DNA from: Chitinophagaceae bacterium
GTDB lineage: Bacteria > Bacteroidota > Bacteroidia > Chitinophagales > Chitinophagaceae
DNA: 11,818 bases
Assembly (NCBI GenBank): GCA_026785745.1
Contig: JAJAZO010000461.1
Location: 1 to 11,818, forward strand
Direction: 5' to 3'
Positions 1 to 11,818 of this stretch are shown piece after piece; position 1 is the first letter of the stretch, and every line of letters starts with the position of its first letter. The notes beneath the pieces are model-generated. The model saw nothing but the letters and a program-made list of their open reading frames with translations, made no database searches and was not told the DNA's origin. The position numbers and the translations under genes were made by a program.

Positions 1-132
1 CGAAAAAAACTTTTTTGTTTTGGATAAATGGTGAACAGGTAATGCAAGACTTAATGGCCCGCACATACCCACACAGTGCAGGCTGCCTGCCGCACCCAGC
101 GTAAAACCTGCTATCATTACCGGCCAAAGCAT
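1..132 (-). CDS. SafE/TauE-like membrane protein, N-terminal fragment (cut by window edge)
   Basis: Only the first 44 codons are present; the rest lies beyond the left edge. The ATG at 132-130 shares one base with the ccoH stop (TAATG), so the two genes are probably translationally coupled. The visible protein starts with a hydrophobic segment (residues 2-16) and carries GSLHCVGMCGP at residues 16-26. That is the signature of the sulfite exporter TauE/SafE-type proteins (DsbD-like membrane family) that commonly follow ccoH in cbb3 clusters. Cys20, Met23 and Cys24 form a CxxMC arrangement that could bind a metal. Family context suggests a role in copper handling or oxidase maturation, but the exact substrate is not known to me. 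The family call is fairly secure; the function is inference. Confidence 0.8.
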   Translation of the reverse strand, partial: MLWPVMIAGFTLGAAGSLHCVGMCGPLSLALPVHHLSKTKKFFS

Positions 133-569
133 TACAATACAGATAGATTCTTTTCAGAAAAATATGTTTTGCCATCATCACTCCAGCTAATCTTTACTGT
201 ATAATTTCCGGCAGAGATAGCAGTTGGTTGGAATACCTGTATTCCTTCCGGGCTGAGTTGCAGTGGAAATTTCTTATCCTTAGTTTGGTCGTAAGCACAA
301 TAGAACCAAACATCACCAGAAATGTTTTTATTTTTCATTTCTACAGGCAGCTCAAGGGTAATGCCAGCATCCGTCTGCATTATTTTCACCGGCGAGCTAA
401 GTTGGTTGGCCCGGTTAGAACCATCAATAACTTGCTGATAACGCAGTTCGCTTTTGTAATAATCCTTTTCCACTAATTCATAATTAGTGTTTACTGACCG
501 GTAAACCAGGTAAAGCATACCAGCACCAAAGACAATGAATGTAACTAACAATTTATTTCCCCAGTTCAT
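132..569 (-). CDS. ccoH: FixH/CcoH family cbb3 oxidase assembly protein
   Basis: Single-pass membrane protein of 145 aa that helps assemble cbb3 oxidase. One N-terminal membrane helix (about residues 7-23) is followed by the family motif around residues 34-55 (EKDYYKSELRYQQVID) and a soluble beta-rich domain on the outer side of the membrane. The open frame extends upstream to a TTG at 575-573. I chose the ATG at 569-567 because MNWGNK is the usual start of Bacteroidota FixH proteins and the ATG is only two codons further in. It begins 19 nt after the ccoG stop and its TAA overlaps the start of the next gene by one base, so it is an internal operon gene. No Shine-Dalgarno sequence is visible, which is normal for this phylum. 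Confidence 0.9.
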   Translation of the reverse strand: MNWGNKLLVTFIVFGAGMLYLVYRSVNTNYELVEKDYYKSELRYQQVIDGSNRANQLSSPVKIMQTDAGITLELPVEMKNKNISGDVWFYCAYDQTKDKKFPLQLSPEGIQVFQPTAISAGNYTVKISWSDDGKTYFSEKNLSVL

Positions 570-588
570 AATCAATTATTTTAGTGAA

Positions 589-2025
589 TTAATATTTTCC
601 AAATGGCCCGGCAAAATTGGTAACGAGTGTAGTAATTTTTTTATCTCCATCATACAAACCAACTTTTAATTTCATTTTACGGCTGGTTACAAATTTTCTG
701 GGTAATACCACAAAGAAGGAGCCGCTGGCCTGGTCTTCCTGTTTCAAATGAATATCAGTGGCTCCAACGAGTTCTATTTTGCCAGCACTGCTTGCATCTC
801 CTTCCAGTTTTAGTGTAACAGGAATATTATTATTTGTTTTATTAATCACTTTAATATTGAAGAGATTACTCAGACTATCGGCACCTCGTTCCTGGTACAA
901 TTGGCCTTTGGTACGTATTATAGTACCGTCTATGTCTTTCCGGCTTACTAATAGTAAAGTAAGAATGCCCGAAAGTAAAAGGAGTAATGCGGTGTAAAAT
1001 TTCATCCGCCCCGTATAGCGGAGTTTCTTTCCTTCCGAGATTCCATTTTCTGATGCATAACGGATAAGACCTGTCGGCTTATGAATAGCCAGCATCATTT
1101 TATCACAGGCATCAATACAGGCGGTGCAGCCCACACATTCCATTTGCGTACCGTTACGGATATCAATTCCGGTAGGGCACACTTTCACACACTGAAAGCA
1201 ATCAATACAATCGCCAGAGCTTATTGTTGGAGCAGCAGTTTTTTTATACTTATCCCTTGGTTCTCCTCTTTTATAATCATACGCTACAACCATGGAGTTT
1301 CTGTCGAGCAACACACTTTGCAAACGGCCATAGGGGCAGATTACCGTGCAGACCTGCTCTCTGAAATAAGCATACACCCCATAAAAAATAAATGAGAACA
1401 GTATAATTGACAGAAAACCGACCATGAGTTCGCTTACCGGCTCACTGATTATATTGTTCAACTCATCAATGCCGATTATGTACGCCAGGAAGAAATTGGC
1501 AATGATAAACGACAGCAAAAAGAAAGCAAAATGCTTGAATGTTTTCTTTCTTATTTTTTGCGCTGTCCATGGCGAATTTTTTAAAAGTTTCTGTTTGGCT
1601 GCATCGCCTTCTATAAGGTATTCCACTTTGCGAAAAAGCATTTCCATAAAAATTGTTTGCGGGCATACCCATCCGCAAAATAGCCGGCCAAACGCTGCGG
1701 TGAAAAGAACGATGAAGATGATAAAAGTTACCATCGTTAATCCGAAAATAAAAAAATCTTGCGGCCAGAATATTTTTCCAAAAATGATGAACTTGCTTTC
1801 GGGTATATTGAATAGAAACAACGGCCTGCCATTAAATTTTAAGAATGGCAAGGTAAAGAACAGGGCAAAGAATCCCCAGCTAACCCAGGTACGGATATTA
1901 TAGAACTTTCCTTTTGGCTTTTGTGCAAATACCCATTTCCGTTTCCCTTTTGCATCTACGGTGGCTATCCTGTCACGGAAAGATTCTTTTGTTTGTTCTT
2001 GTTGGTTTGTTTCTGTTTCAATCAT
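589..2025 (-). CDS. ccoG: CcoG/FixG/RdxA, polyferredoxin of cbb3 oxidase assembly
   Basis: Membrane ferredoxin of 478 aa needed for cbb3 oxidase biogenesis; a family member has been described as a cupric reductase supplying Cu(I). Hydrophobic segments lie near residues 46-63, 90-112, 165-186, 198-221 and 342-360. Conserved cysteine pairs occur in CGWVCPQT (117-124) and VCTVICPYG (225-233). Two [4Fe-4S] sites follow: C273, C276, C279, C283 and C297, C300, C303, C307, with CPTGIDIRNG between them. The C-terminal part (about 365-478) is the Ig-like FixG accessory domain outside the membrane. Length and all key cysteines are normal, so it looks functional. The ATG at 2025 lies 34 nt after the ccoP stop and ccoH follows after 19 nt, which places it in the oxidase operon. 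Confidence 0.97.
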   Translation of the reverse strand: MIETETNQQEQTKESFRDRIATVDAKGKRKWVFAQKPKGKFYNIRTWVSWGFFALFFTLPFLKFNGRPLFLFNIPESKFIIFGKIFWPQDFFIFGLTMVTFIIFIVLFTAAFGRLFCGWVCPQTIFMEMLFRKVEYLIEGDAAKQKLLKNSPWTAQKIRKKTFKHFAFFLLSFIIANFFLAYIIGIDELNNIISEPVSELMVGFLSIILFSFIFYGVYAYFREQVCTVICPYGRLQSVLLDRNSMVVAYDYKRGEPRDKYKKTAAPTISSGDCIDCFQCVKVCPTGIDIRNGTQMECVGCTACIDACDKMMLAIHKPTGLIRYASENGISEGKKLRYTGRMKFYTALLLLLSGILTLLLVSRKDIDGTIIRTKGQLYQERGADSLSNLFNIKVINKTNNNIPVTLKLEGDASSAGKIELVGATDIHLKQEDQASGSFFVVLPRKFVTSRKMKLKVGLYDGDKKITTLVTNFAGPFGKY

Positions 2026-2059
2026 ATCATCACTTGTTTCACTATTTCATCTCAATTAT

Positions 2060-3223
2060 TTATTTGTTGCCTGCAGAGGCCGTTGTTGCAGAATCGGCAG
2101 GTGTTTTTGGCACAGCTTCTTCCTTATATAGTTCCCCCTGTTGTTCTTTTGGGTTGACAGGCTTACTTCCTTTTAATGTTTTGATATAGCTGGTTAATTG
2201 AGCAATTTGCTTCGCTGACAAATCATCCTTCCAGCTTCTCATTCCTTTGCTGGTACCGTACTTGATTGTTTTAAAGATATCTTTTACATTGCCACCATAT
2301 ACCCAATAATCATCAGTTAGGTTGGGGCCAACGGCATTACCACCGCCATCAGCATTGTGACAAGCAGGACATTTTGAAGGGTCCATAAACAAAGCTTTAC
2401 CTGCGGCAATGTCATCAGCACCGGTTAAAAGCGTCACGGTATTTTCATCTACCAAATCTCCTTTCTTCTTCAGGTACTCCTGTATTTTTATTTCTGCTTT
2501 TGCAACAGACATTTCATACTCTTCTTTGCTGGATGGACCTTTATGTGATACTTCAAAACGCCACAAATAAATTACTGCAAATAAAATGGTGGCATAGAAA
2601 CCATACAACCACCATGGCGGAAGCTTGTTGTTCAGTTCCCTGATGCCATCGTATTCATGACCTAAATCCAGTTCGGCTTCCTGGCTAACCGGACGTAGCT
2701 TATTCATTTTATCCCACCAGCTAAGTTTGTTTACTTTTTCTTCTGTGGTTACTGCCAGTTTTTTTTCTGTTATTGTTTTTTCCTTTTCCTTCTTTAATAA
2801 AAGTTTGATATTAAGTAGCAGCACAATGATGACAAGCAATTCGAGAAACAGAACAGTTACCATTACATAAAAGGTGGAAGCATCCATACCGCCAATTAGT
2901 TTGGAGGTCTTTGTAACTGTATCAGTTGTAGCCTGTGCCAGTACAGAAGCCGGGTTAAACAACATCAATAGCAGCAATACAATAACTGATTTTCTGGCTT
3001 TTTCTTCAATTCTTTTTTTCAGTTTGACATCTGCAGCACCGATAACAATATTGGCGAGAATGCCAATAACAATTAAAAGGAGCAGCATCAAATTAATAAA
3101 TGTTACTGCTAATGGATTGCTGAATACGGATGGTGCAGGTGGCCCACCGGCATAAGCAGGTTGAGCAATGCATACTAACAGAATGGCAATCAGCCCTGAG
3201 ATATATTTTAAATAGTTACGCAT
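2060..3223 (-). CDS. ccoP: CcoP-type cytochrome c subunit of cbb3 oxidase, single haem
   Basis: Electron-entry subunit of cbb3 oxidase, 387 aa. The CcoP/FixP N-terminal signature is clear at residues 189-210 (HEYDGIRELNN, then PPWWLYGFYAT), leading into the membrane anchor at about 204-222. The soluble domain holds one haem c site, CPACH at 285-289, with Met328 (GTSKGMRSW) as the likely distal ligand. Proteobacterial CcoP has two CxxCH motifs; here there is only one. Before the FixP signature is an extra region of about 185 residues: a signal-peptide-like helix (7-25, AYA before GG) and hydrophobic segments at about 39-62, 79-97 and 116-144, then a charged linker. Multi-helix N termini and single-haem CcoP are seen in Bacteroidota. 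It starts 23 nt after ccoQ. The C-terminal tail is low-complexity and charged. Confidence 0.93.
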   Translation of the reverse strand: MRNYLKYISGLIAILLVCIAQPAYAGGPPAPSVFSNPLAVTFINLMLLLLIVIGILANIVIGAADVKLKKRIEEKARKSVIVLLLLMLFNPASVLAQATTDTVTKTSKLIGGMDASTFYVMVTVLFLELLVIIVLLLNIKLLLKKEKEKTITEKKLAVTTEEKVNKLSWWDKMNKLRPVSQEAELDLGHEYDGIRELNNKLPPWWLYGFYATILFAVIYLWRFEVSHKGPSSKEEYEMSVAKAEIKIQEYLKKKGDLVDENTVTLLTGADDIAAGKALFMDPSKCPACHNADGGGNAVGPNLTDDYWVYGGNVKDIFKTIKYGTSKGMRSWKDDLSAKQIAQLTSYIKTLKGSKPVNPKEQQGELYKEEAVPKTPADSATTASAGNK

Positions 3224-3246
3224 AAATAAAATCGTTACAGGTTATT

Positions 3247-3414
3247 TTAATGCTGGTTATCAAGTGGAATGTTGCTTACTTCAATAAAGTCTTTCTTTTT
3301 TGTTTTGAATACCCAGGTAAGCATTACTACAAAAAACAAAAAGAAAATTGTCAGCGATATAAGCCCTATTATATCTACGCCACTTACTTTTTCCAGATAG
3401 TTTATGAATTTCAT
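3247..3414 (-). CDS. ccoQ: CcoQ/FixQ-like small membrane subunit of cbb3 oxidase
   Basis: Small protein of 55 aa with one membrane helix (about residues 15-36) followed by a basic KTKKK stretch and a short tail ending near NIPLD. This is the size, topology and tail of CcoQ, which stabilises the oxidase complex. The open frame continues upstream to 3501, but that part overlaps the ccoO coding region in another frame. The ATG at 3414-3412 leaves a 10-nt gap after the ccoO stop and gives a normal CcoQ length. It sits between ccoO and ccoP, the standard position. Sequence conservation in CcoQ is low, so position and topology carry much of the call. Confidence 0.88.
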   Translation of the reverse strand: MKFINYLEKVSGVDIIGLISLTIFFLFFVVMLTWVFKTKKKDFIEVSNIPLDNQH

Positions 3415-3424
3415 ATTGGGTGTT

Positions 3425-3793
3425 TTATTTTTTTTCTGAAATCGGTTTAGGTTCTCCCTGTATATCACGACCCAGTCGTTGCATATATGCGATGAGGGCA
3501 ATTATTTCCCTGTCTGATGATGTTTCTATCTTATCTTTTTTCAGGTTGCCTGCAATTGAATCAGCCTGCTTCATCAAATCCACATTTGCTATTTTATCAT
3601 AGTCTTTGGGATAAGGAACACCCAATTTTCTCATGGCTCTTATTTTAGCTGCTGTGGTTGATATGTCTAATTTGTCATCAAGCAACCAGATATATCTTGG
3701 CATGATTGAACCCGGAGAAGTGAGGCGGGGGTCATACATATGTGTGTAATGCCAGGAGTCGGGCCTTTTGTTTTTATCAGCTCCTTCTCTAGC
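3425..3793 (-). pseudogene. ccoO: C-terminal part of CcoO, separated from ccoNO by an in-frame stop
   Basis: These 122 codons plus TAA continue the ccoNO frame directly after the premature stop. Translation starts AREGADKNKRPDSWHYTHMY and continues with DPRLTSPGSIMPRYIWLL, the well-conserved second half of the CcoO cytochrome c domain. Met628 (counting the internal stop as 597) in GSIMPRY is the expected distal haem ligand, so this fragment is essential for a working CcoO. There is no frameshift and no second stop before 3425. The ATG at 3739 lies inside the conserved domain and lacks a ribosome binding site, so independent translation is unlikely. The intact sequence suggests that the interruption is very recent or a sequencing error. 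Confidence 0.88.
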
Positions 3794-3796
3794 TTA
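3794..3796 (-). other. In-frame premature TAA in ccoNO
   Basis: On the minus strand the codons read CCG GAT TAA GCT AGA GAA GGA. The family sequence here is GPDLAREG or close to it, so a Leu codon is expected; TTA changed to TAA is the simplest explanation. The flanking ORFs share the same frame, exactly 57 nt (19 codons) separating the stop from the next Met codon. TAA is the normal stop of nearly all other genes in the window, which argues against programmed recoding. Confidence 0.9.
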
Positions 3797-5584
3797 ATCC
3801 GGCCCGGTTCTTTTACTTCCCCATTGAAAAGGATGGTCATACACAAATTCACCGGCTTTTGAATATTCACCATACCGTGCCACTTCATCCCTGAACGGTC
3901 GAATCATTTGTGAATGACAGGTGTAGCAACCTTCTCTTACATAAATATCCCTGCCCTGTAACTCTAGCGGAGTATATGGTTTTACACTGGCAATAGTTGG
4001 CACATTAGATTTTACAAGGAATGTCGGAATCATTTGTACTAATCCACCAATGGCAACAAGTATTAAACTTAATACCAGCATGGTAAGTGGTTTTCTTTCA
4101 ATAACACGGTGCCAGTATTCTTTTTTTTGTGATACAGCTTTTACAATTGGTGCAGCTTCTGCTGCTTCATTTGGAATAAATGTTCCCTTAGCAATTGTTT
4201 TATAAAGATTATACACCATGATAAATGCACCGATGAGGTACAATGTGCCACCAACACTGCGGGCCACATACATGTATTTGATATTAGTGACAGTTTGCAT
4301 GAAGTCAAATCTCAACTGACCTTCGGGAGTAAACTGTTTCCACATCAGGCTTTGCTCAAATCCTGCCCAGTATAATGGCACTGCATAAATGATGATGCCA
4401 ATGGTGCCGAGCCAGAAGTGATTGGTGGCTAATTTTTTTGAATACAAACTTGTGCCCCACATTTTGGGAATCATATAATAAAGGATGGCAAATGCCATAA
4501 ACCCATTCCATCCTAATCCACCTATATGCACATGCCCGATTGTCCAATCGCTGAAGTGAGATATTGCATTTACACTTTTTAAGCTTAACAAAGGTCCTTC
4601 AAAAGTGGCCATACCATAACAGGTAATGGCTACTACCATAAATTTAAGAACAGGGTCTTCTCTTACTTTATCCCATGCACCACGCAGCGTAAACAAACCA
4701 TTCAGCATACCACCCCAGCTTGGCATAATTAACATAATAGAAAAAACAACACCGAGTGATTGTGCCCAATCTGGTAAAGCGGTGTATAACAAATGGTGAG
4801 GGCCAGCCCAGATATAAATAAATATCAATGACCAAAAGTGAATAATTGAAAGACGATTGGAATATACCGGCCTGTTGGCAGCTTTTGGAAGAAAATAATA
4901 CATCAACCACAGCACCGGCGTAGTTAAAAAGAACGCAACTGCATTGTGCCCATACCACCATTGTACCAACGCATCCTGCACTCCTGCATACCAGCTATAA
5001 CTTCCGGTTGCGGAATAAGGCAATTCGATAGAACGTACAATATGCAGCAATGCAACAGTAACCCAGGTAGCGATATAAAACCAAATAGCAACATACAAAT
5101 GCTTTTCTCTTCTTTTAATAATGGTACCAAACATATTAATACCGAAGATTATCCATACTAAAGCAATGGCGATGTCTATGGGCCAAATCAATTCTGCATA
5201 TTCAGCACCGTTATTTAATCCAAGCGGTAGCGTAATAGCAGCAGCAACAATTATGAGTTGCCAGCCCCAGAAGTGAATCCAGCTTAATTTATCACTCCAC
5301 ATTCTTGCCTTGCATAACCGCTGCAACGAATAATAAATTCCGGCAAATGATGCATTACCTACAAAGGCAAAAATGATGGCATTGGTATGCAACGGACGAA
5401 GACGGCCAAATGTAGTAGGGGCTAAATTTAAACTGATGGCTGGGTAATACATCTGGATAGCAGCCCACAGACCAACAATCATCCCAACAATACCGAAGAT
5501 GACGGTGGCATATCCAAAAGCTTTTACAATCTTGTTATCATAATAGAATTTTTCAACTTGCATGCTTTGATTTGTTTCTTGCAT
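3794..5584 (-). CDS. ccoN: Fused CcoN-CcoO: catalytic subunit I joined to cytochrome c subunit II (prematurely stopped)
   Basis: The first 480 or so residues are CcoN, the 12-helix haem-copper subunit that reduces oxygen. Expected ligands are present: H66 and H353 for low-spin haem b, H351 for haem b3, H213, H263 and H264 for CuB, and Y257 in YIWAGPHH, the position of the cross-linked tyrosine in cbb3 enzymes. After a short linker a new membrane anchor (about 499-519) begins the CcoO part, with haem c site CYTCH at 553-557 and [13 protein letters not shown] before the stop. CcoN-CcoO fusions are known in Bacteroidota. Without the TAA at codon 597 the protein would be 719 codons long. As written, the product lacks the distal half of the cytochrome domain. 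The start at 5584 is 12 nt after ccoS; the ATG at codon 8 is an alternative. Confidence 0.93.
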
Positions 5585-5596
5585 AACCGGGTTTGT

Positions 5597-5761
5597 TTAT
5601 TTTGTTTTGGTTGAAGAAGAAGGTTTATCATCAAAAAGAATACGGGAAGGGGGGGAGTATTCATCTTCAAACTGCCCTGATTTTACTCCCCATAGAAAGG
5701 CGATTAAGAAAATAGCCGCAACGGAGATACTGGCTATCAGGAGGATAATTATTACACTCAT
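5597..5761 (-). CDS. ccoS: CcoS, cbb3 oxidase assembly protein
   Basis: A 54-aa protein starting MSVIIILLIASISVAAIFL, with one membrane helix (about residues 2-24), then FLWGVKSGQFEDEYSPPSRI and a Ser/Lys-rich tail. The WGVKSGQFEDxxxP motif just after the helix is diagnostic of CcoS, a small protein needed to insert redox cofactors (haem b and CuB) into the CcoN subunit. It begins at the ATG 5761-5759 and stops 12 nt before ccoN, so it is the first gene of the packed structural operon. The 109-nt gap upstream carries a palindromic regulator site. The gene is short enough to be missed by many ORF callers. Confidence 0.95.
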   Translation of the reverse strand: MSVIIILLIASISVAAIFLIAFLWGVKSGQFEDEYSPPSRILFDDKPSSSTKTK

Positions 5762-5870
5762 TGGTTTATATTAAAGGAGTAAAAGTATTTTGCGACCCGT
5801 CGGCAGGAGATAATGAGTATCAGGAGAAAAACTGATTTTTGTCAGCTTATAATAGCAGTTCAGGCATGGT
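5762..5870 (-). promoter_or_regulatory. Likely promoter region of the ccoS-ccoNO-ccoQ-ccoP-ccoG-ccoH operon
   Basis: This is the 109-nt gap between the ccoI stop and the ccoS start, much larger than the 10 to 34 nt gaps downstream. It contains the palindrome at 5832-5845 and, on the minus strand, TACTTTTA at 5787-5780. The latter differs at one base from the Bacteroidota -7 consensus TAnnTTTG. There is no clear -33 TTTG at the usual spacing, as may be expected for an activator-dependent promoter. Promoter function is inferred. Confidence 0.5.
5832..5845. promoter_or_regulatory. FNR/CRP-like palindrome upstream of ccoS
   Basis: CTGAT-TTTT-GTCAG, a palindrome of two 5-base arms around 4 bases, with TGA and TCA at the positions of the FNR consensus TTGAT-N4-ATCAA. 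Its edge is 71 nt before the ccoS ATG. An extra half-site ATCAG lies at 5819-5823. A nearly identical site sits at a matching position upstream of ccoI. A Crp/Fnr-family regulator sensing oxygen or NO is the likely binder, but no regulator gene is in the window. Confidence 0.6.
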
Positions 5871-8282
5871 TTAAAGCTTCATTCGCTTTGCCAGCAGGCT
5901 GCTGCTGCCAAAAGTGATAAGCAGGATGCTGAGAGAGCTGCTCGGCATCAGTATAGCTGCGACCAACGGAGAAAGATTGCCCTGCACAGCAAAGAATAAG
6001 CCGATAATATTATAGACGATTGACAGTACAAAGCTTGCTATTATAATATTCCTGTTGGCCCGGCAGAGTTGAATGAACTTGTTTAGGCGGGATAATTGTT
6101 TTGCTTCAATAATCGCATCGCTGGAAGGGGTGAAGTTATTAGTCTGTTCTGCTACCGCAATTCCAATATCACTTTGCTTTAAGGCACCAGCATCATTCAG
6201 CCCATCACCTATCATCATCACTTTTTCTCCGTGCTGTTGCAAATGCTGTATGTATTGAAGTTTATCCTCCGGCTTTTGATGAAATAACAGGGTGGCTTTT
6301 TTGCCCAGCAACCTTTGCAGATTTTCTTTTTCTGCTTCATTATCGCCAGATAAAACAGACAAACGATAATTGCCTTTCAGCTTTTTTAATAAATCAGGAA
6401 TTGCTTCCCGGTAATGGTTACTAAAAAGAAAATATCCATACAGTTTGTTTTCAATATTGATAAAAATAGCGGTGCCGGTCTGTCTTTCTGCAATGCCCGT
6501 TACAAATTTGCAGGAACCCAATTTCAATAAATCATCATTTGCAAAACCTTCAATGCCCTGTCCCGTTGTTTCTTTAAATCCTGCTACGTCGGTTCTTTTT
6601 TCGGTAGAAAGATGTTTAGCCAGTGCTTTACTCAACGGATGAGAGGAACAGGCTGCTAATGCAGCTACTTGTTGTTGCTGGTAAGCAGTTAACTCAGTTC
6701 CTTTATAGGAAATATTTTGTTGTTGGGTTGTAGTCAGCGTTCCTGTTTTGTCAAAAACAATATGCGTTGCCTTTGCCACGTCATCAATAGTCTGGGCACT
6801 TCGCAGGTAAAAATGGTTCCTGCCTAATATGCGGAGAATATTTCCGTTGGTAAATGTATTGGACAAAAGCAGGGCACAGGGGCAGGCAATAATAAAAATG
6901 GATGTAACGGCCGGCCATAATCTTGCCGGATCATTTATTTGCCAGTACACAGCTGTTGCAATAGCGATAGACAAAACGATATAAGTGAAATAGCGGCTGA
7001 GTAAATGAACGAATGAAACGCTTTTCGACTGCTCCTCTTTCTTCACCCCGATATCTATCTGGGCATCCTTATTCCAGAGTTTGGTAAGATAACTTTGGGC
7101 CACTTCTTTCACCACCAGTATTTCAATATTGCCACCTGTTTGCTTGCCTCCGGCATAAACAAGTTCACCCACTTCTTTTAGTACAGGCAATGATTCGCCG
7201 GTAACAAAACTGTAATCAATAAAAGCCTTTCCTTTTGTCAATATGCCATCGGCAGGAATTAATTCTTCATTATGAATCAGCAAAGTATCACCAGGTTTTA
7301 TGTCTGGTAATGCAGTGGGTATTTCTTTTTCTTCTTTTAATACGGAAATAGCAATCGGAAAATAAGAAGTATAATCCCGTTCAAATGATAATTGACGATA
7401 GGTTTTATCCTGCAAAATTCTTCCGGCTAACATAAAGAAAACAATACCTGTCATGGAGTCAAAATAACCGCCACCAATGCCACTGATAACTTCATAGGCA
7501 CTGCGGATAAAAGTAATAATGATGGCCAAAGCAATTGGGGCATCAATATTCAGGACTTTGTGTTTCAGGCTTTTCCACGATGAAGTATAAAAGGGGAGAG
7601 CTGAGTATAATAAAACCGGAATAGCCAAACCAAAATTTATCCAACGGAAAATACTCCGAAGGCCCGTTTCACTTGCATCAATGCCAAGGTATTCGGGAAA
7701 ACTCATCAGCATGATATTGCCAAAGCAGAAACCGGCAATACCAAGCTGATACACCATGCTTTTATTAATGGCCGGTCTTTTCTCTTTCAAATCATTCAGG
7801 CTGATGTATGGCTCATAACCAATGCTAGTTAAGGTCTCGGCTACTTTTCGCAGACTTGTTTGCCCGGTCAGCAAAACAATATCAACTTCTTTTCGGGTAA
7901 AATTTACTTTGCTTGATATAACACCATCATTAAGCCGGTACAGATTTTCCAGCAAGTAAAGACAGGAGCTACAGTGTATTTGCGGCAGGTAGAATGTTAC
8001 ATGCACCTGTTTATCATCCCTGAAACTGAGAAGTTGTACCTGTATTTTCTCATCATCCAAAAAAGCGAATTTATCTTTCCTCAATTTTATCTGCTGGCTG
8101 ATGCCGGGGTTTTCGTTCAGATTATAGTATTCGCAGAGGTCGCTTTGGTTCAGTATCTGGTACACCATCTTGCATCCTTCACAGCAAAAATTTTTCTCTT
8201 GCCGCTGAATCCTTTCGTTGGGGCAAGTTTCACCGCAATGGTAACACTGAGTTTTTTTAGCTGTAAGGTCGGGTGAAGGCAT
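5871..8282 (-). CDS. ccoI: CcoI/FixI copper-transporting P1B-type ATPase
   Basis: Heavy-metal P-type ATPase of 803 aa that exports copper across the inner membrane for cbb3 oxidase maturation. The N-terminal cysteine-rich domain (C13, C16, C20, C33, C34, C37) is the metal-binding domain typical of FixI-type ATPases. It is followed by an HMA-like domain with HCSSC at 103-107. The core shows TGES (361-364), the intramembrane CPC motif (467-469), phosphorylation site DKTGT (D511), HP (548-549) and GDGLND (692-697). Eight membrane segments are plausible, the last pair at about 746-768 and 772-790. All catalytic motifs are intact and the length is normal. It is the first cco gene, set off from ric by 105 nt and from ccoS by 109 nt, each gap with its own FNR-like site, so it may be a separate transcription unit. 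The start at 8282 places the Cys-rich domain correctly. Confidence 0.96.
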   Translation of the reverse strand: MPSPDLTAKKTQCYHCGETCPNERIQRQEKNFCCEGCKMVYQILNQSDLCEYYNLNENPGISQQIKLRKDKFAFLDDEKIQVQLLSFRDDKQVHVTFYLPQIHCSSCLYLLENLYRLNDGVISSKVNFTRKEVDIVLLTGQTSLRKVAETLTSIGYEPYISLNDLKEKRPAINKSMVYQLGIAGFCFGNIMLMSFPEYLGIDASETGLRSIFRWINFGLAIPVLLYSALPFYTSSWKSLKHKVLNIDAPIALAIIITFIRSAYEVISGIGGGYFDSMTGIVFFMLAGRILQDKTYRQLSFERDYTSYFPIAISVLKEEKEIPTALPDIKPGDTLLIHNEELIPADGILTKGKAFIDYSFVTGESLPVLKEVGELVYAGGKQTGGNIEILVVKEVAQSYLTKLWNKDAQIDIGVKKEEQSKSVSFVHLLSRYFTYIVLSIAIATAVYWQINDPARLWPAVTSIFIIACPCALLLSNTFTNGNILRILGRNHFYLRSAQTIDDVAKATHIVFDKTGTLTTTQQQNISYKGTELTAYQQQQVAALAACSSHPLSKALAKHLSTEKRTDVAGFKETTGQGIEGFANDDLLKLGSCKFVTGIAERQTGTAIFINIENKLYGYFLFSNHYREAIPDLLKKLKGNYRLSVLSGDNEAEKENLQRLLGKKATLLFHQKPEDKLQYIQHLQQHGEKVMMIGDGLNDAGALKQSDIGIAVAEQTNNFTPSSDAIIEAKQLSRLNKFIQLCRANRNIIIASFVLSIVYNIIGLFFAVQGNLSPLVAAILMPSSSLSILLITFGSSSLLAKRMKL

Positions 8283-8387
8283 AGGTTTCCCACAATAAGG
8301 TGCTAAAGTACCTGCTCCTGTAAATGGTAAGGGTGAGTAACTTCAAAGGCTAACCTGATTTATATCAGTTACAGTGATTTGTTCCAA
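8283..8387 (-). promoter_or_regulatory. Likely promoter region of ccoI
   Basis: A 105-nt gap between the ric stop and the ccoI start. It holds the palindrome at 8355-8368 and, on the minus strand, TACTTTAG at 8310-8303, one mismatch from the Bacteroidota -7 consensus TAnnTTTG. The TACTTT begins 45 nt from the palindrome edge, exactly as upstream of ccoS. A TTTG at 8347-8344 is too far away to be a normal -33 element. No terminator-like hairpin with a U tract is seen after ric, so read-through from the nos-ric genes remains possible. Confidence 0.5.
8355..8368. promoter_or_regulatory. FNR/CRP-like palindrome upstream of ccoI
   Basis: CTGAT-TTAT-ATCAG, a perfect 5+5 palindrome with a 4-base spacer that differs from the FNR consensus TTGAT-N4-ATCAA only at the two outermost bases. 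Its edge is 73 nt before the ccoI ATG. The geometry (centre about 62 nt before the presumed transcription start) would fit class I activation. The binder is inferred to be a Crp/Fnr-family protein. Confidence 0.68.
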
Positions 8388-9125
8388 TTAGTTTAAGGAG
8401 CAGCTATTTGTTACATTAAATAATTTCAAGGCTTTTGGAAACAGGATATTGTTTTCCAGGTGTACATGCCTGTGTAAGTCAAGTTCAAAAGCCTCTAATG
8501 CAGCATAAATAAGGCGATAAGTAGTGCAGGCATCAACAGGCGGAGTAAAATTGTCTGTTAGATTCCTTATTTCTGCAAGCAAACTACCTGCATGGTCATG
8601 TTCCTGTTCCATCATATTAATAGGAGAAAGGAGGTAAGTATGGTTGATAATGATTTCTTTTCCTTCATTCACTATCTTTTCCACCTCTTTAATCCGGGGA
8701 AATAAAACTAATTCCTCTTTTTGCATGTGATGTTCCATTTCTTCTTTGACTGCTGTAAATAACTGAAGAACTTTTATCATTTCTGGATGCCGGTCGCCAT
8801 GTTTGGAAGCTACTTTTTGTAAATATCCAAGAATGGCAGGTGATTCTTTTTTCACAAAACTGTGATGAATTAAAACAATGTATTCTGACAATTGAGCAAG
8901 TGATAGCCTGTTATAATCAACATCTGAAGAAGAACTATTTACCTGTTCTGTTGTTTGCAGCTCAGAAATAACTTCTTCAATTTTTAATTCCTTTTCGGTG
9001 CAGGCCTCTTGCAGGCTTCTTTTCCCTTTGCAGCAAAAGTCCAGATGATATTTTTCAAATACCATAGCAGCCCGGTGATTGTTATTTACAATTTGTGCCA
9101 GGCTTTTTGTCATTAAATCGTTCAT
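8388..9125 (-). CDS. ric: Ric/ScdA/YtfE/DnrN family di-iron iron-sulfur cluster repair protein
   Basis: Cytosolic protein of 245 aa that repairs Fe-S clusters damaged by nitric oxide or oxidants. The N-terminal ScdA_N domain contains the conserved DFCCKGKRSLQEAC (residues 29-42). A hemerythrin-like four-helix domain follows, with probable di-iron ligands H87 or H88, H133 and E137 (HMQKEE), H176 (EQEHDHAG), and H220 and E224 (HVHLENNILFP). This is the full set expected from YtfE. Start is the ATG at 9125; the Met at codon 5 is possible but would trim the conserved N terminus. It begins 30 nt after nosY and is probably co-transcribed with the nos genes, linking denitrification intermediates with NO defence. 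The next gene, ccoI, has its own promoter-like gap. Confidence 0.94.
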   Translation of the reverse strand: MNDLMTKSLAQIVNNNHRAAMVFEKYHLDFCCKGKRSLQEACTEKELKIEEVISELQTTEQVNSSSSDVDYNRLSLAQLSEYIVLIHHSFVKKESPAILGYLQKVASKHGDRHPEMIKVLQLFTAVKEEMEHHMQKEELVLFPRIKEVEKIVNEGKEIIINHTYLLSPINMMEQEHDHAGSLLAEIRNLTDNFTPPVDACTTYRLIYAALEAFELDLHRHVHLENNILFPKALKLFNVTNSCSLN

Positions 9126-9155
9126 GGTAGTTTCTTTTATTGTGAAGTAATAGGG

Positions 9156-9923
9156 TTATAAATCTTTTTTCCTGAACTTCCTTACCGCCAGCCATAACGG
9201 AATAAGAATCCAGAGTAACATAATGCCGGCTGTAAAAATGATGCCGGTACCACTGCCAAAGAAATCTTTATACAAAGCACCGGTATAACCCATCAATGCG
9301 CTGATATCCATTTTGAGCATGATAAAAATGCGGCCAAGGTCAATAGGGTTAAGGGCAGAAAGTAAGAGAGTGAGTTTTTCTAATGGGTAATCACTAAAGG
9401 AAAATAAAATTAAGAGAACAAGGCCGTCATAAATCAATGCAAAATAAAACCAGAGCAATAATGCAAAACCAATACCTCTTGCTTTGTCTCTTGCCACTAC
9501 GGATGCAAAAAAGGCAATAGAAGTGAATACGAGAGTCAGTGACATTCCGGTAAATAGTAAAGCAAAACCTGTAGCATCTGGGGAGAACAATAGAACGGGG
9601 ATGCCAACACCAAGAAAGAAAGCACTCAGCAGTGAAATGCTTACACCTGAGAACTCACTCATTAAAATCCTGGTACGGCTCATCGGTTGCGATGACATCA
9701 ACTCGATAAATTCATAGGAGTTATAATAATGAATAGTGGTAAAAATGAGGCTTACCAGAGGCAGTACTATCAGAACGATGTTTAACAGGCTCAGCATGGC
9801 CTTGCTGCTATTCTCTTCCATCTGAAACATACTGAGAGAGACAACAAAAAGAAATAAAGTATAAGCGATGATAATCTTATTTCTCAGTATATCGTACAGC
9901 ACATATTTAGAAAGCTTCATCAT
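9156..9923 (-). CDS. nosY: NosY-type ABC-2 permease for nitrous oxide reductase maturation
   Basis: Membrane component of the NosDFY transporter, 255 aa. Six hydrophobic segments are visible at about residues 18-33, 46-66, 92-113, 119-143, 150-176 and 225-247. The motif NPIDLGRIFIMLKMDISALMG (starting at residue 192) is characteristic of NosY. With NosF and NosD it supports assembly of the copper centre of N2O reductase in the periplasm. The start is MM at 9923; the second Met is equally possible. It lies 33 nt after nosF, and the gap contains a G+C-rich hairpin and an unusually strong purine run (GGAGGGG) just upstream of the start. ric follows after 30 nt. Confidence 0.9.
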   Translation of the reverse strand: MMKLSKYVLYDILRNKIIIAYTLFLFVVSLSMFQMEENSSKAMLSLLNIVLIVLPLVSLIFTTIHYYNSYEFIELMSSQPMSRTRILMSEFSGVSISLLSAFFLGVGIPVLLFSPDATGFALLFTGMSLTLVFTSIAFFASVVARDKARGIGFALLLWFYFALIYDGLVLLILFSFSDYPLEKLTLLLSALNPIDLGRIFIMLKMDISALMGYTGALYKDFFGSGTGIIFTAGIMLLWILIPLWLAVRKFRKKDL

Positions 9924-9956
9924 AACCCCTCCTGCCTCCCCTGATGGGGAGAATTT
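9924..9956 (-). repeat. G+C-rich hairpin between nosF and nosY
   Basis: CTCCCC (9936-9941), loop TGAT, GGGGAG (9946-9951): a perfect 6-bp stem with a 4-base loop, in otherwise A+T-rich surroundings. A further CCCCTCC block (9925-9931) adds G-rich sequence next to the nosY start on the transcript, where AGGAGGGG looks like a strong ribosome binding site. It is not followed by a U tract, so it is not a terminator. Similar CCCCTCC/GGGGAG hairpins occur between genes in Bacteroidota genomes, so it may be a dispersed intergenic repeat; that last point is from memory. Confidence 0.5.
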
Positions 9957-10724
9957 TTAATAGATTTTTCCATCATTTTTTATTTCAAGCATTTTATCAA
10001 TCCATTCGCTGTTGAATTGTTCACCTCTCATAATCCTTGCAATGGCTTTTCCCAATCTCAATTCGCCGGTTTCTTCCTGCAATGCTTCCATGTCTTTAAA
10101 GAACTGCACTTTTCCTTCCTGCATATACATGATGTGGGTAGTGAGTTCGTCAAGGTCACTGAGAATATGCGAAGTGATAAGTATCAGCTTATTCTTTTTC
10201 TTTTCAACAAGAATCTTTTCTTTTAATATTTCTGAGGACAAGGGATCTAAACCTGCAGTTGGTTCATCAAGAATAAGAATAGCGGGGTCAAAAAGAAAAG
10301 CAACGGCTGCACTTACTTTTTGACGGGTACCGCCACTCAAAGTCCGCATAGGTTTTTCAAATATCTTTTCTAATTCAAATTTTTCTATTAATGTTTTATC
10401 TAATTTCTCTTCCGCTATGTTGCGTATATTTTGCAGCATTGTAAATAACTGCCCCACTTTCATATTATCAGGATAGCGGCCAATCTGTGGCATATACCCT
10501 ATTTTTTTCCGGTAAGAGTGATCGCTGGTAATAAGTTGCTCATCTACATAAATCTTTCCGCTATCGGGCCGTACCATACCAAGTATGGATTTAATCAGTG
10601 TCGTCTTACCCGAACCATTGGGTCCGATAAGTGATACAACCTGTCCTTTGGCAAATGATGCTGTTATATTATCCAGCACCTGTAGTTTACGGAAGCGTTT
10701 ATTAATATTTTCAATCCTAATCAT
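9957..10724 (-). CDS. nosF: NosF-type ABC transporter ATPase
   Basis: Nucleotide-binding subunit of the NosDFY transporter, 255 aa, cytoplasmic. Walker A GPNGSGKT is at residues 34-41, the Q-loop glutamine at about 80 (YMPQIGRYP), the signature LSGGTRQK at 129-136, Walker B with the catalytic Glu at 150-154 (LILDE), the D-loop AGLDP at 157-161 and the switch His at 186 (TSHILSDLDEL). All are intact. The start ATG overlaps the nosD stop as ATGA (10721-10724), which implies translational coupling and agrees with the conserved nosD-nosF-nosY order. On sequence alone it is a generic ABC-2 type ATPase; the neighbours identify it as NosF. Confidence 0.94.
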   Translation of the reverse strand: MIRIENINKRFRKLQVLDNITASFAKGQVVSLIGPNGSGKTTLIKSILGMVRPDSGKIYVDEQLITSDHSYRKKIGYMPQIGRYPDNMKVGQLFTMLQNIRNIAEEKLDKTLIEKFELEKIFEKPMRTLSGGTRQKVSAAVAFLFDPAILILDEPTAGLDPLSSEILKEKILVEKKKNKLILITSHILSDLDELTTHIMYMQEGKVQFFKDMEALQEETGELRLGKAIARIMRGEQFNSEWIDKMLEIKNDGKIY

Positions 10725-11818
10725 AGTTTAAGCGATTTCATCAGGGGCGATTTGTCAACCAGGTTTTCAGGAGTAAGGCTTGGTATGGCTTTTTCTGCTT
10801 TGTCTAATAATTGTACGGTAAAGCTTCTCAGCAGCATCAGTGCATAAGGATTTTGTTCTATAATCATTGAATACATGCTGACGGGGTGATAAGGAATGTC
10901 GCCAATGCCATCTTTATTGATGTCGTAGCCTTCATATTTATCCCAGTAATTATTGTAAAAATTATTCAGTGAGATAGAACCGTTGGTGCCAATATCAAAA
11001 CTGTTGCCGGTAAAATTGTTGTTGTGGAAATTATTGTCTTCACAGCTTGCCTGCACTTTAAGTGCCCAGCCATTCCCGTTGAAAATATTCCTTTCAATAT
11101 TAATGCGACTGGTCCCTTCCAAATGAATACCAACTGTGTTCCTCAAAAAAGTATTATGAAGGATATAGCTGTCAGAAATGTCTTTTAGTAAGATGCCATA
11201 CGAAGACGGTCCCCAGTTTTGTTCAAAGTGGTTATTTTCCATCTTTACTTTTTTTGAATACATCACGGCAACTCCTGCACCATTATTTCGAAAAGTGTTG
11301 TTGAAGTAGGTGTCATCATTGGAAAACATAAAGTGAAGACCGTACCTGATATTTTTTTCGCTCAGGTTGTTACGGATGGTAGAGGAACTGACAAATTCAA
11401 AATAGATACCGTCCCGCTGCCCCTGAATATGATTGTTTTCGATTACAGCATGACTGGATTTCCAGAGATGGATGCCGTTCCCGGTCAGTTGTTCTGATTT
11501 TGGTGAGCCGGATATATAATTATTTCTGATATAGGCATAAGCCGTATTAGAAATATGAATGGCAAAATAGGCATCGTATATATAATTATTCTCTATAATG
11601 ATGTTGGAGGCATCTACTAATTTGATGGAAGCATAATCATTCATGGCTGAATAACCGGAATTACGGAAATGGATTCCTTTTATGGTGATGTTCTTTCCGC
11701 TGATAAGTAATATTTCATATTTTTTTTCTCCGTCAAGAATGGGGTTATTCTGTCCAATGATAGTAATAGATTTGGTTACTGTCATACTTCCTTCTTTGTA
11801 AATTCCGGGTTGTAACAG
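10721..11818 (-). CDS. nosD: NosD, periplasmic copper-maturation protein of N2O reductase (5' end outside window)
   Basis: The reading frame is open to the right edge, so the gene is 5'-truncated: 365 residues are visible. The Met encoded at 11785 is internal, because the in-frame upstream codons encode LLQPGIYKEGS, the normal start of a NosD beta-helix after its signal peptide. The protein is a right-handed parallel beta-helix with many Asn-rich CASH repeats (for example IIIENNYIYD, AVIENNHIQG, VKMENNHFEQN). Near the end is GYDINKDGIGDIPYHP (visible residues 297-312), a NosD hallmark, and the C terminus keeps IPSLTPENLVDKSPL. NosD works in the periplasm with NosFY and the copper donor NosL to build the copper site of NosZ. 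About 40 to 60 N-terminal residues, including the export signal, are probably missing from view. Confidence 0.95.
   Translation of the reverse strand: MLQPGIYKEGSMTVTKSITIIGQNNPILDGEKKYEILLISGKNITIKGIHFRNSGYSAMNDYASIKLVDASNIIIENNYIYDAYFAIHISNTAYAYIRNNYISGSPKSEQLTGNGIHLWKSSHAVIENNHIQGQRDGIYFEFVSSSTIRNNLSEKNIRYGLHFMFSNDDTYFNNTFRNNGAGVAVMYSKKVKMENNHFEQNWGPSSYGILLKDISDSYILHNTFLRNTVGIHLEGTSRINIERNIFNGNGWALKVQASCEDNNFHNNNFTGNSFDIGTNGSISLNNFYNNYWDKYEGYDINKDGIGDIPYHPVSMYSMIIEQNPYALMLLRSFTVQLLDKAEKAIPSLTPENLVDKSPLMKSLKL

Follow-up and report, generated by a model that had tools for sequence, protein, structure and literature searches.

The window analysed in this work is the whole stretch of 11,818 nucleotides, corresponding to the contig C461 (11.8 kb) of a genome which comprises 2,819,318 bases in 483 contigs and is 72.83% complete. 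A single cluster of genes, from nosD at one end to ccoH at the other, occupies positions 132-11818, and the features, all located on the minus strand, are as follows.

132..575, minus strand: ccoH/FixH, uninterrupted (Pfam FixH, 61.2 bits, above the cut-off)
589..2025, minus strand: ccoG, uninterrupted (TIGR02745, 403 bits, above the cut-off)
2060..3223, minus strand: ccoP-like cytochrome subunit, uninterrupted (TIGR00782, 111 bits, below the cut-off of 179.95)
3247..3414, minus strand: ccoQ/FixQ-like, candidate ATG at 3414 (Pfam FixQ, 25.5 bits, below the cut-off of 29)
3425..3793, minus strand: 3' part of ccoO in the same frame as the 5' part, first ATG at 3739, with GSIMPRY (NF011053 positions 611-709)
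3794..3796, minus strand: in-frame TAA at the conserved Leu site of GPDLAREG (translation, relatives)
3797..5584, minus strand: ccoN and the 5' part of ccoO, 596 aa, with CYTCH (NF011053, 1081.6 bits; TIGR00780, 632.9 bits)
5871..8282, minus strand: heavy-metal P-type ATPase, CcoI-like by position, uninterrupted (TIGR01525, 314.7 bits, below the cut-off of 346.25)
8388..9125, minus strand: RIC/YtfE-type iron-sulfur repair protein (TIGR03652, 240.2 bits, above the cut-off)
9156..9923, minus strand: NosY-like, named by position only, no NCBIfam match
9957..10724, minus strand: NosF-like ABC ATPase, name by position, with ABC ATPase matches
10721..11818, minus strand: nosD, truncated at its 5' end where the contig stops (TIGR04247, 401.7 bits, above the cut-off)

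Translation and the six-frame open reading frames (ORFs) place an in-frame TAA at bases 3796-3794 of the ccoN-ccoO fusion frame 5584-3425. It is the only internal stop of this frame and falls inside the GPDLAREG motif, so that 596 residues are followed by TAA, then by AREGADKNKRPDSWHYTHMYDPRLTSPGSIMPRY... and finally by the natural TAA terminator. The CYTCH haem motif is located 5' and GSIMPRY 3' of the stop, both in one frame, exactly as the first-pass annotation had described for an otherwise intact fusion gene. The two sides also match the same family, NCBIfam NF011053 of fused cbb3 subunits I/II: the 596-aa part at positions 2-594 of 716 with 1081.6 bits (cut-off 1080), and the ORF beginning at the first ATG past the stop at positions 611-709 with 100.1 bits. 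The CcoN oxidase domain scored 632.9 bits with TIGR00780 (cut-off 583.15), and a CcoO domain with its CxxCH, seen as CYTCH, is fused to it in frame, NF011053 being above its cut-off; the CcoO part is interrupted on the way to its distal Met motif, as TAA precedes GSIMPRY. The impaired cytochrome domain proposed earlier agrees with the predicted product, which would retain CxxCH but be without the distal part of the cytochrome domain. Past the stop, a 104-aa ORF starts at an ATG 54 bases downstream; it contains no CxxCH, and inspection by eye revealed no hydrophobic segment. In the region 3400-5900, promoter-like and terminator-like matches did not exceed those in shuffled sequences. No second copy of ccoNO was found in the genome, the sole other match being a remote COX1 relative on contig C374.

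The nine other genes of the contig are uninterrupted and stay in one frame when compared with whichever of four relatives carry them, in line with the earlier remark on the downstream genes. The mechanically called ccoQ-like ORF (3247-3501) begins too early, because stops stand opposite its initial portion in all four relatives. A foreign origin of the contig was considered and rejected, the window GC of 0.392 lying inside the range of 0.364-0.415 of 52 unmasked sampled contigs.

The stop site was then compared with homologues. A ccoNO search in 38 genomes, including the own genome, gave matches in 32 and full-length ones in 19; the 18 full-length genes from other genomes belong to the same genus (12) and the same order (6), and the match in G005 is partial and ends before the stop site. 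Leu, encoded by CTT, CTC, CTG, TTG or TTA, occupies this site in 18/18 full-length relatives, and the GPDL motif is present in 260/260 database proteins among the matches listed (best 120 of several thousand per search), the closest named of which come from Chitinophagaceae and other Bacteroidetes. In the best 80 GTDB loci kept, the residue is Leu in 79 and Val in one. These three sets were picked by similarity and may overlap; they agree with the expectation of Leu at this point of GPDLAREG. A second sequence with the TAA was found in none of the 18 relatives and none of the 80 GTDB loci, and no truncated near-identical protein appeared among the best 120 listed per database search. The best 80 GTDB loci contain no internal stop or split; six of them have flagged stops, every one among the first or the last aligned residues. 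None of the homologues examined has a gene boundary at the site, and all read through it, which speaks against a true boundary in close relatives, the refuting observation named earlier. Solved CcoO chains (9g83_u, 6xkw_o, 3mk7_B) also align through the stop site, GPDLAR being conserved in the 9g83_u and 6xkw_o alignments; these are separate, unfused and uninterrupted subunits, whereas ccoO of the window is fused and interrupted. Among the relatives, G035 (same order; L021, G035:C50) carries a lone in-frame TAA of its own in ccoNO, located elsewhere, at match residue 127. In G029 a TAG was flagged at first, and none lies inside the aligned region.

Constraint on both sides of the stop was estimated in the window and two close relatives, whose ccoNO is 92 and 91% identical to that of the window. 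Because dS is saturated between these species, dN/dS was set aside, and dN together with unique codon changes was used in its place, with 11 of the 12 full-length same-genus matches taken. Unique nonsynonymous codons in ccoN (489 codons) numbered 12 in the window and 11 and 26 in the relatives; in ccoO before the stop (107 codons) 0 versus 0 and 3; after the stop (120 codons) 7 versus 10 and 3. In no part of ccoNO is the window the highest. There was no sign of relaxed selection after the stop, in a comparison which, given the saturated dS, would show substantial relaxation only. On this measure both flanks look constrained. The relaxed constraint expected of a pseudogene after inactivation was thus not found, and a very recent event would likewise leave none. 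The post-stop part being no more changed than in the two close relatives, the earlier view that the event is either recent or an error stands.

For an estimate of how often genes are broken in this genome, the window and 56 other contigs (four of them masked as N) were compared with ORFs from parts of two relatives, a comparison that covered 31,360 aligned residues in 78 genes. It flagged four stops along with two frame changes. The stop on C37 (L156) was dropped, since the alignment puts it before the real start, and three genes were left as broken. Besides ccoNO these are a sortilin/BNR-type gene on C34 (L153, G000:C34, about 14133-17263) and an M19 dipeptidase gene on C38 (L157, G000:C38, about 6212-7410). 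Each of the two has a single in-frame stop and lacks one base, which is lost beside TT in the former and within an A-run in the latter. Their closest matches elsewhere are unbroken, namely G005 and G010 at 73-74% for the dipeptidase and, among the matches listed, G003, G005, G008, G011, G015 and G016 at 70-83% for the sortilin/BNR-type gene; a paralogous sortilin/BNR-type match in G011 carries a TAA. Compared with these two genes, ccoNO has one lesion only. In the control genome of the close relative G021 (52 genes, 19,215 residues) three rows in two genes were flagged, and all of them were judged, from context only, to be gene-boundary effects (stops upstream of the true start or beyond the true end), so that 0/52 genes were counted as broken. 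A further control of G001 and G009 (19 genes) gave one flagged row, dismissed from context as a boundary effect as well. By Fisher's test the contrast of 3/78 with 0/52 falls short of significance (p = 0.27; 0.52 when ccoNO is left out).

A search with RND/MMPL-type proteins flagged an in-frame stop in 9/132 matches from 22 genomes: one of the four matches of the own genome (a weak one, G000:C462:897-1388) and eight in other genomes, three of these being strong matches (G003:C11, G010:C50, G024:C7). Stops were found in none of 24 ABC-domain matches and none of three class-I synthetase matches of the own genome, nor in its NosZ or COX1. Given these stop-free genes and the RND stops of the relatives, the own genome is not riddled with breaks, and stops occur in relatives too. 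A reference-free codon-usage scan for abutting open frames had no power, having missed the window's own stop.

The genome also holds other respiration genes. An uninterrupted NosZ is encoded near one end of contig C389 and could, by its position, precede nosD of the window. A CtaD-type subunit I of 602 aa, also uninterrupted, is located on C374 next to a CoxB-like gene, both scoring below the curated cut-offs. Cytochrome bd (CydA) gave no match in this 72.8%-complete genome. With the CtaD-type gene present and CydA not found, the bacterium would still have one probable oxygen-reducing oxidase if cbb3 were truly lost.

We consider a consensus error the most likely source of the TAA, with a probability of about 0.5. 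On this view ccoNO would be ordinary and uninterrupted in the organism, and the breaks would arise in sequencing or assembly and not in the cell. This reading is supported by the fragmentary state of the draft metagenome-assembled genome (483 contigs, 72.83% complete), by the stop being unique to the own genome among those compared and by flanks that look constrained; the two further genes with a stop and a one-base loss lean in the same direction, although either could be a real pseudogene. Against it stand the non-significant control contrast, the flagged stops not being peculiar to the own genome, its stop-free ABC-domain, class-I synthetase, NosZ and COX1 matches, the nine uninterrupted neighbours, and the nature of the change in ccoNO, which is not a homopolymer slip. 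The RND stops flagged in other genomes lower the odds of an error and raise those of a genuine nonsense mutation that arose very recently in the strain sequenced, a serious contender that we place a little under an even chance; the two readings are close to equally likely, with the error slightly ahead. The mutation would yield a 596-aa CcoN-CcoO product which keeps CxxCH and is devoid of the part holding the GSIMP methionine, and for this reason the cbb3 oxidase would probably be unassembled or inactive, while oxygen respiration could go on via the second haem-copper oxidase. It agrees with the single affected codon, with the lack of decay in either part, with the uninterrupted state of the other contig genes, and with the share of single-base changes in ccoNO that give a stop, about 5% (346 one-step changes); the CtaD-type gene with its CoxB-like neighbour and NosZ could cover the loss, and the lone TAA elsewhere in ccoNO of G035 and the RND stops offer parallels in other genomes. 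It is weakened by the lack of a second stop-bearing sequence among the 18 relatives and 80 GTDB loci, by the lack of any near-identical protein of truncated length in the best 120 matches of each search, and by the two other conserved genes of the sample which carry a stop plus a one-base loss.

Constraint of the usual kind on both sides of the stop would also be expected if TAA were read through, or reassigned, to give full-length CcoNO. This is very improbable: TAA terminates nine of the ten window genes, so recoding is unlikely, and a stop that is unique to one genome, and not conserved in relatives, constitutes no conserved recoding signal. Moreover, the three stops inspected (TAA, TAA and TGA) stand opposite Leu, Asp and Thr, respectively, in the aligned relative. 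No suppressor tRNA was found in 52 contigs, a weak test given the only one tRNA found there. The ATG 54 bases past the stop, with its 104-aa ORF, would permit a true split into a CcoN-CcoO' protein and a separately started C-terminal piece complementing each other. We find this hardly credible, since such a piece, with neither CxxCH nor a hydrophobic segment by eye, would have no haem attachment and no membrane anchor; the homologues examined show no boundary here, and in the solved structures, where CcoO is a chain of its own, the alignment starts with the first residues of that chain.

If the TAA is an error, it is a reminder that a lone stop in a draft metagenome-assembled genome is no proof of lost function unless reads support it. 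Comparable draft-genome cases are the TAA in ccoNO of G035 and the two own-genome genes in which a stop is joined by the loss of one base. A real stop would mean that one strain of a nos-bearing bacterium had lost an oxidase subunit. The first-pass annotation went further and envisaged a population that had lost its cbb3 oxidase; this is not supported, because the data come from one contig of one draft genome, two other conserved genes in the sampled part of that genome are broken, and the matches listed included no other sequence carrying the stop. It is improbable that the stop is both real and spread in a population newly giving up the high-affinity cbb3 enzyme while keeping NosZ and the CtaD-type oxidase, as the first step of a shift from microaerobic respiration to N2O. 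Neither an error nor a mutation shows a new mechanism or biological device; on false stops in metagenome-assembled genomes, the literature search gave loosely related work only.

The gene itself resembles known fused CcoN-CcoO proteins (NF011053, putative bifunctional cbb3-type cytochrome c oxidase subunit I/II) in its domain order and in CYTCH, GPDLAREG and GSIMPRY, and the neighbours of such systems, ccoQ-like, ccoP-like, ccoG and ccoH, are the same; it differs from the fused relatives in having TAA where they have Leu of GPDLAREG. Nos genes were not found in the stretch of G001 compared. Matches to the cluster genes are also grouped in G021, G009 and G022. In G022, a remote CcoN relative (L117, G022:C2, about 4668-5696), 24% identical, lies between the RIC and P-type ATPase genes.
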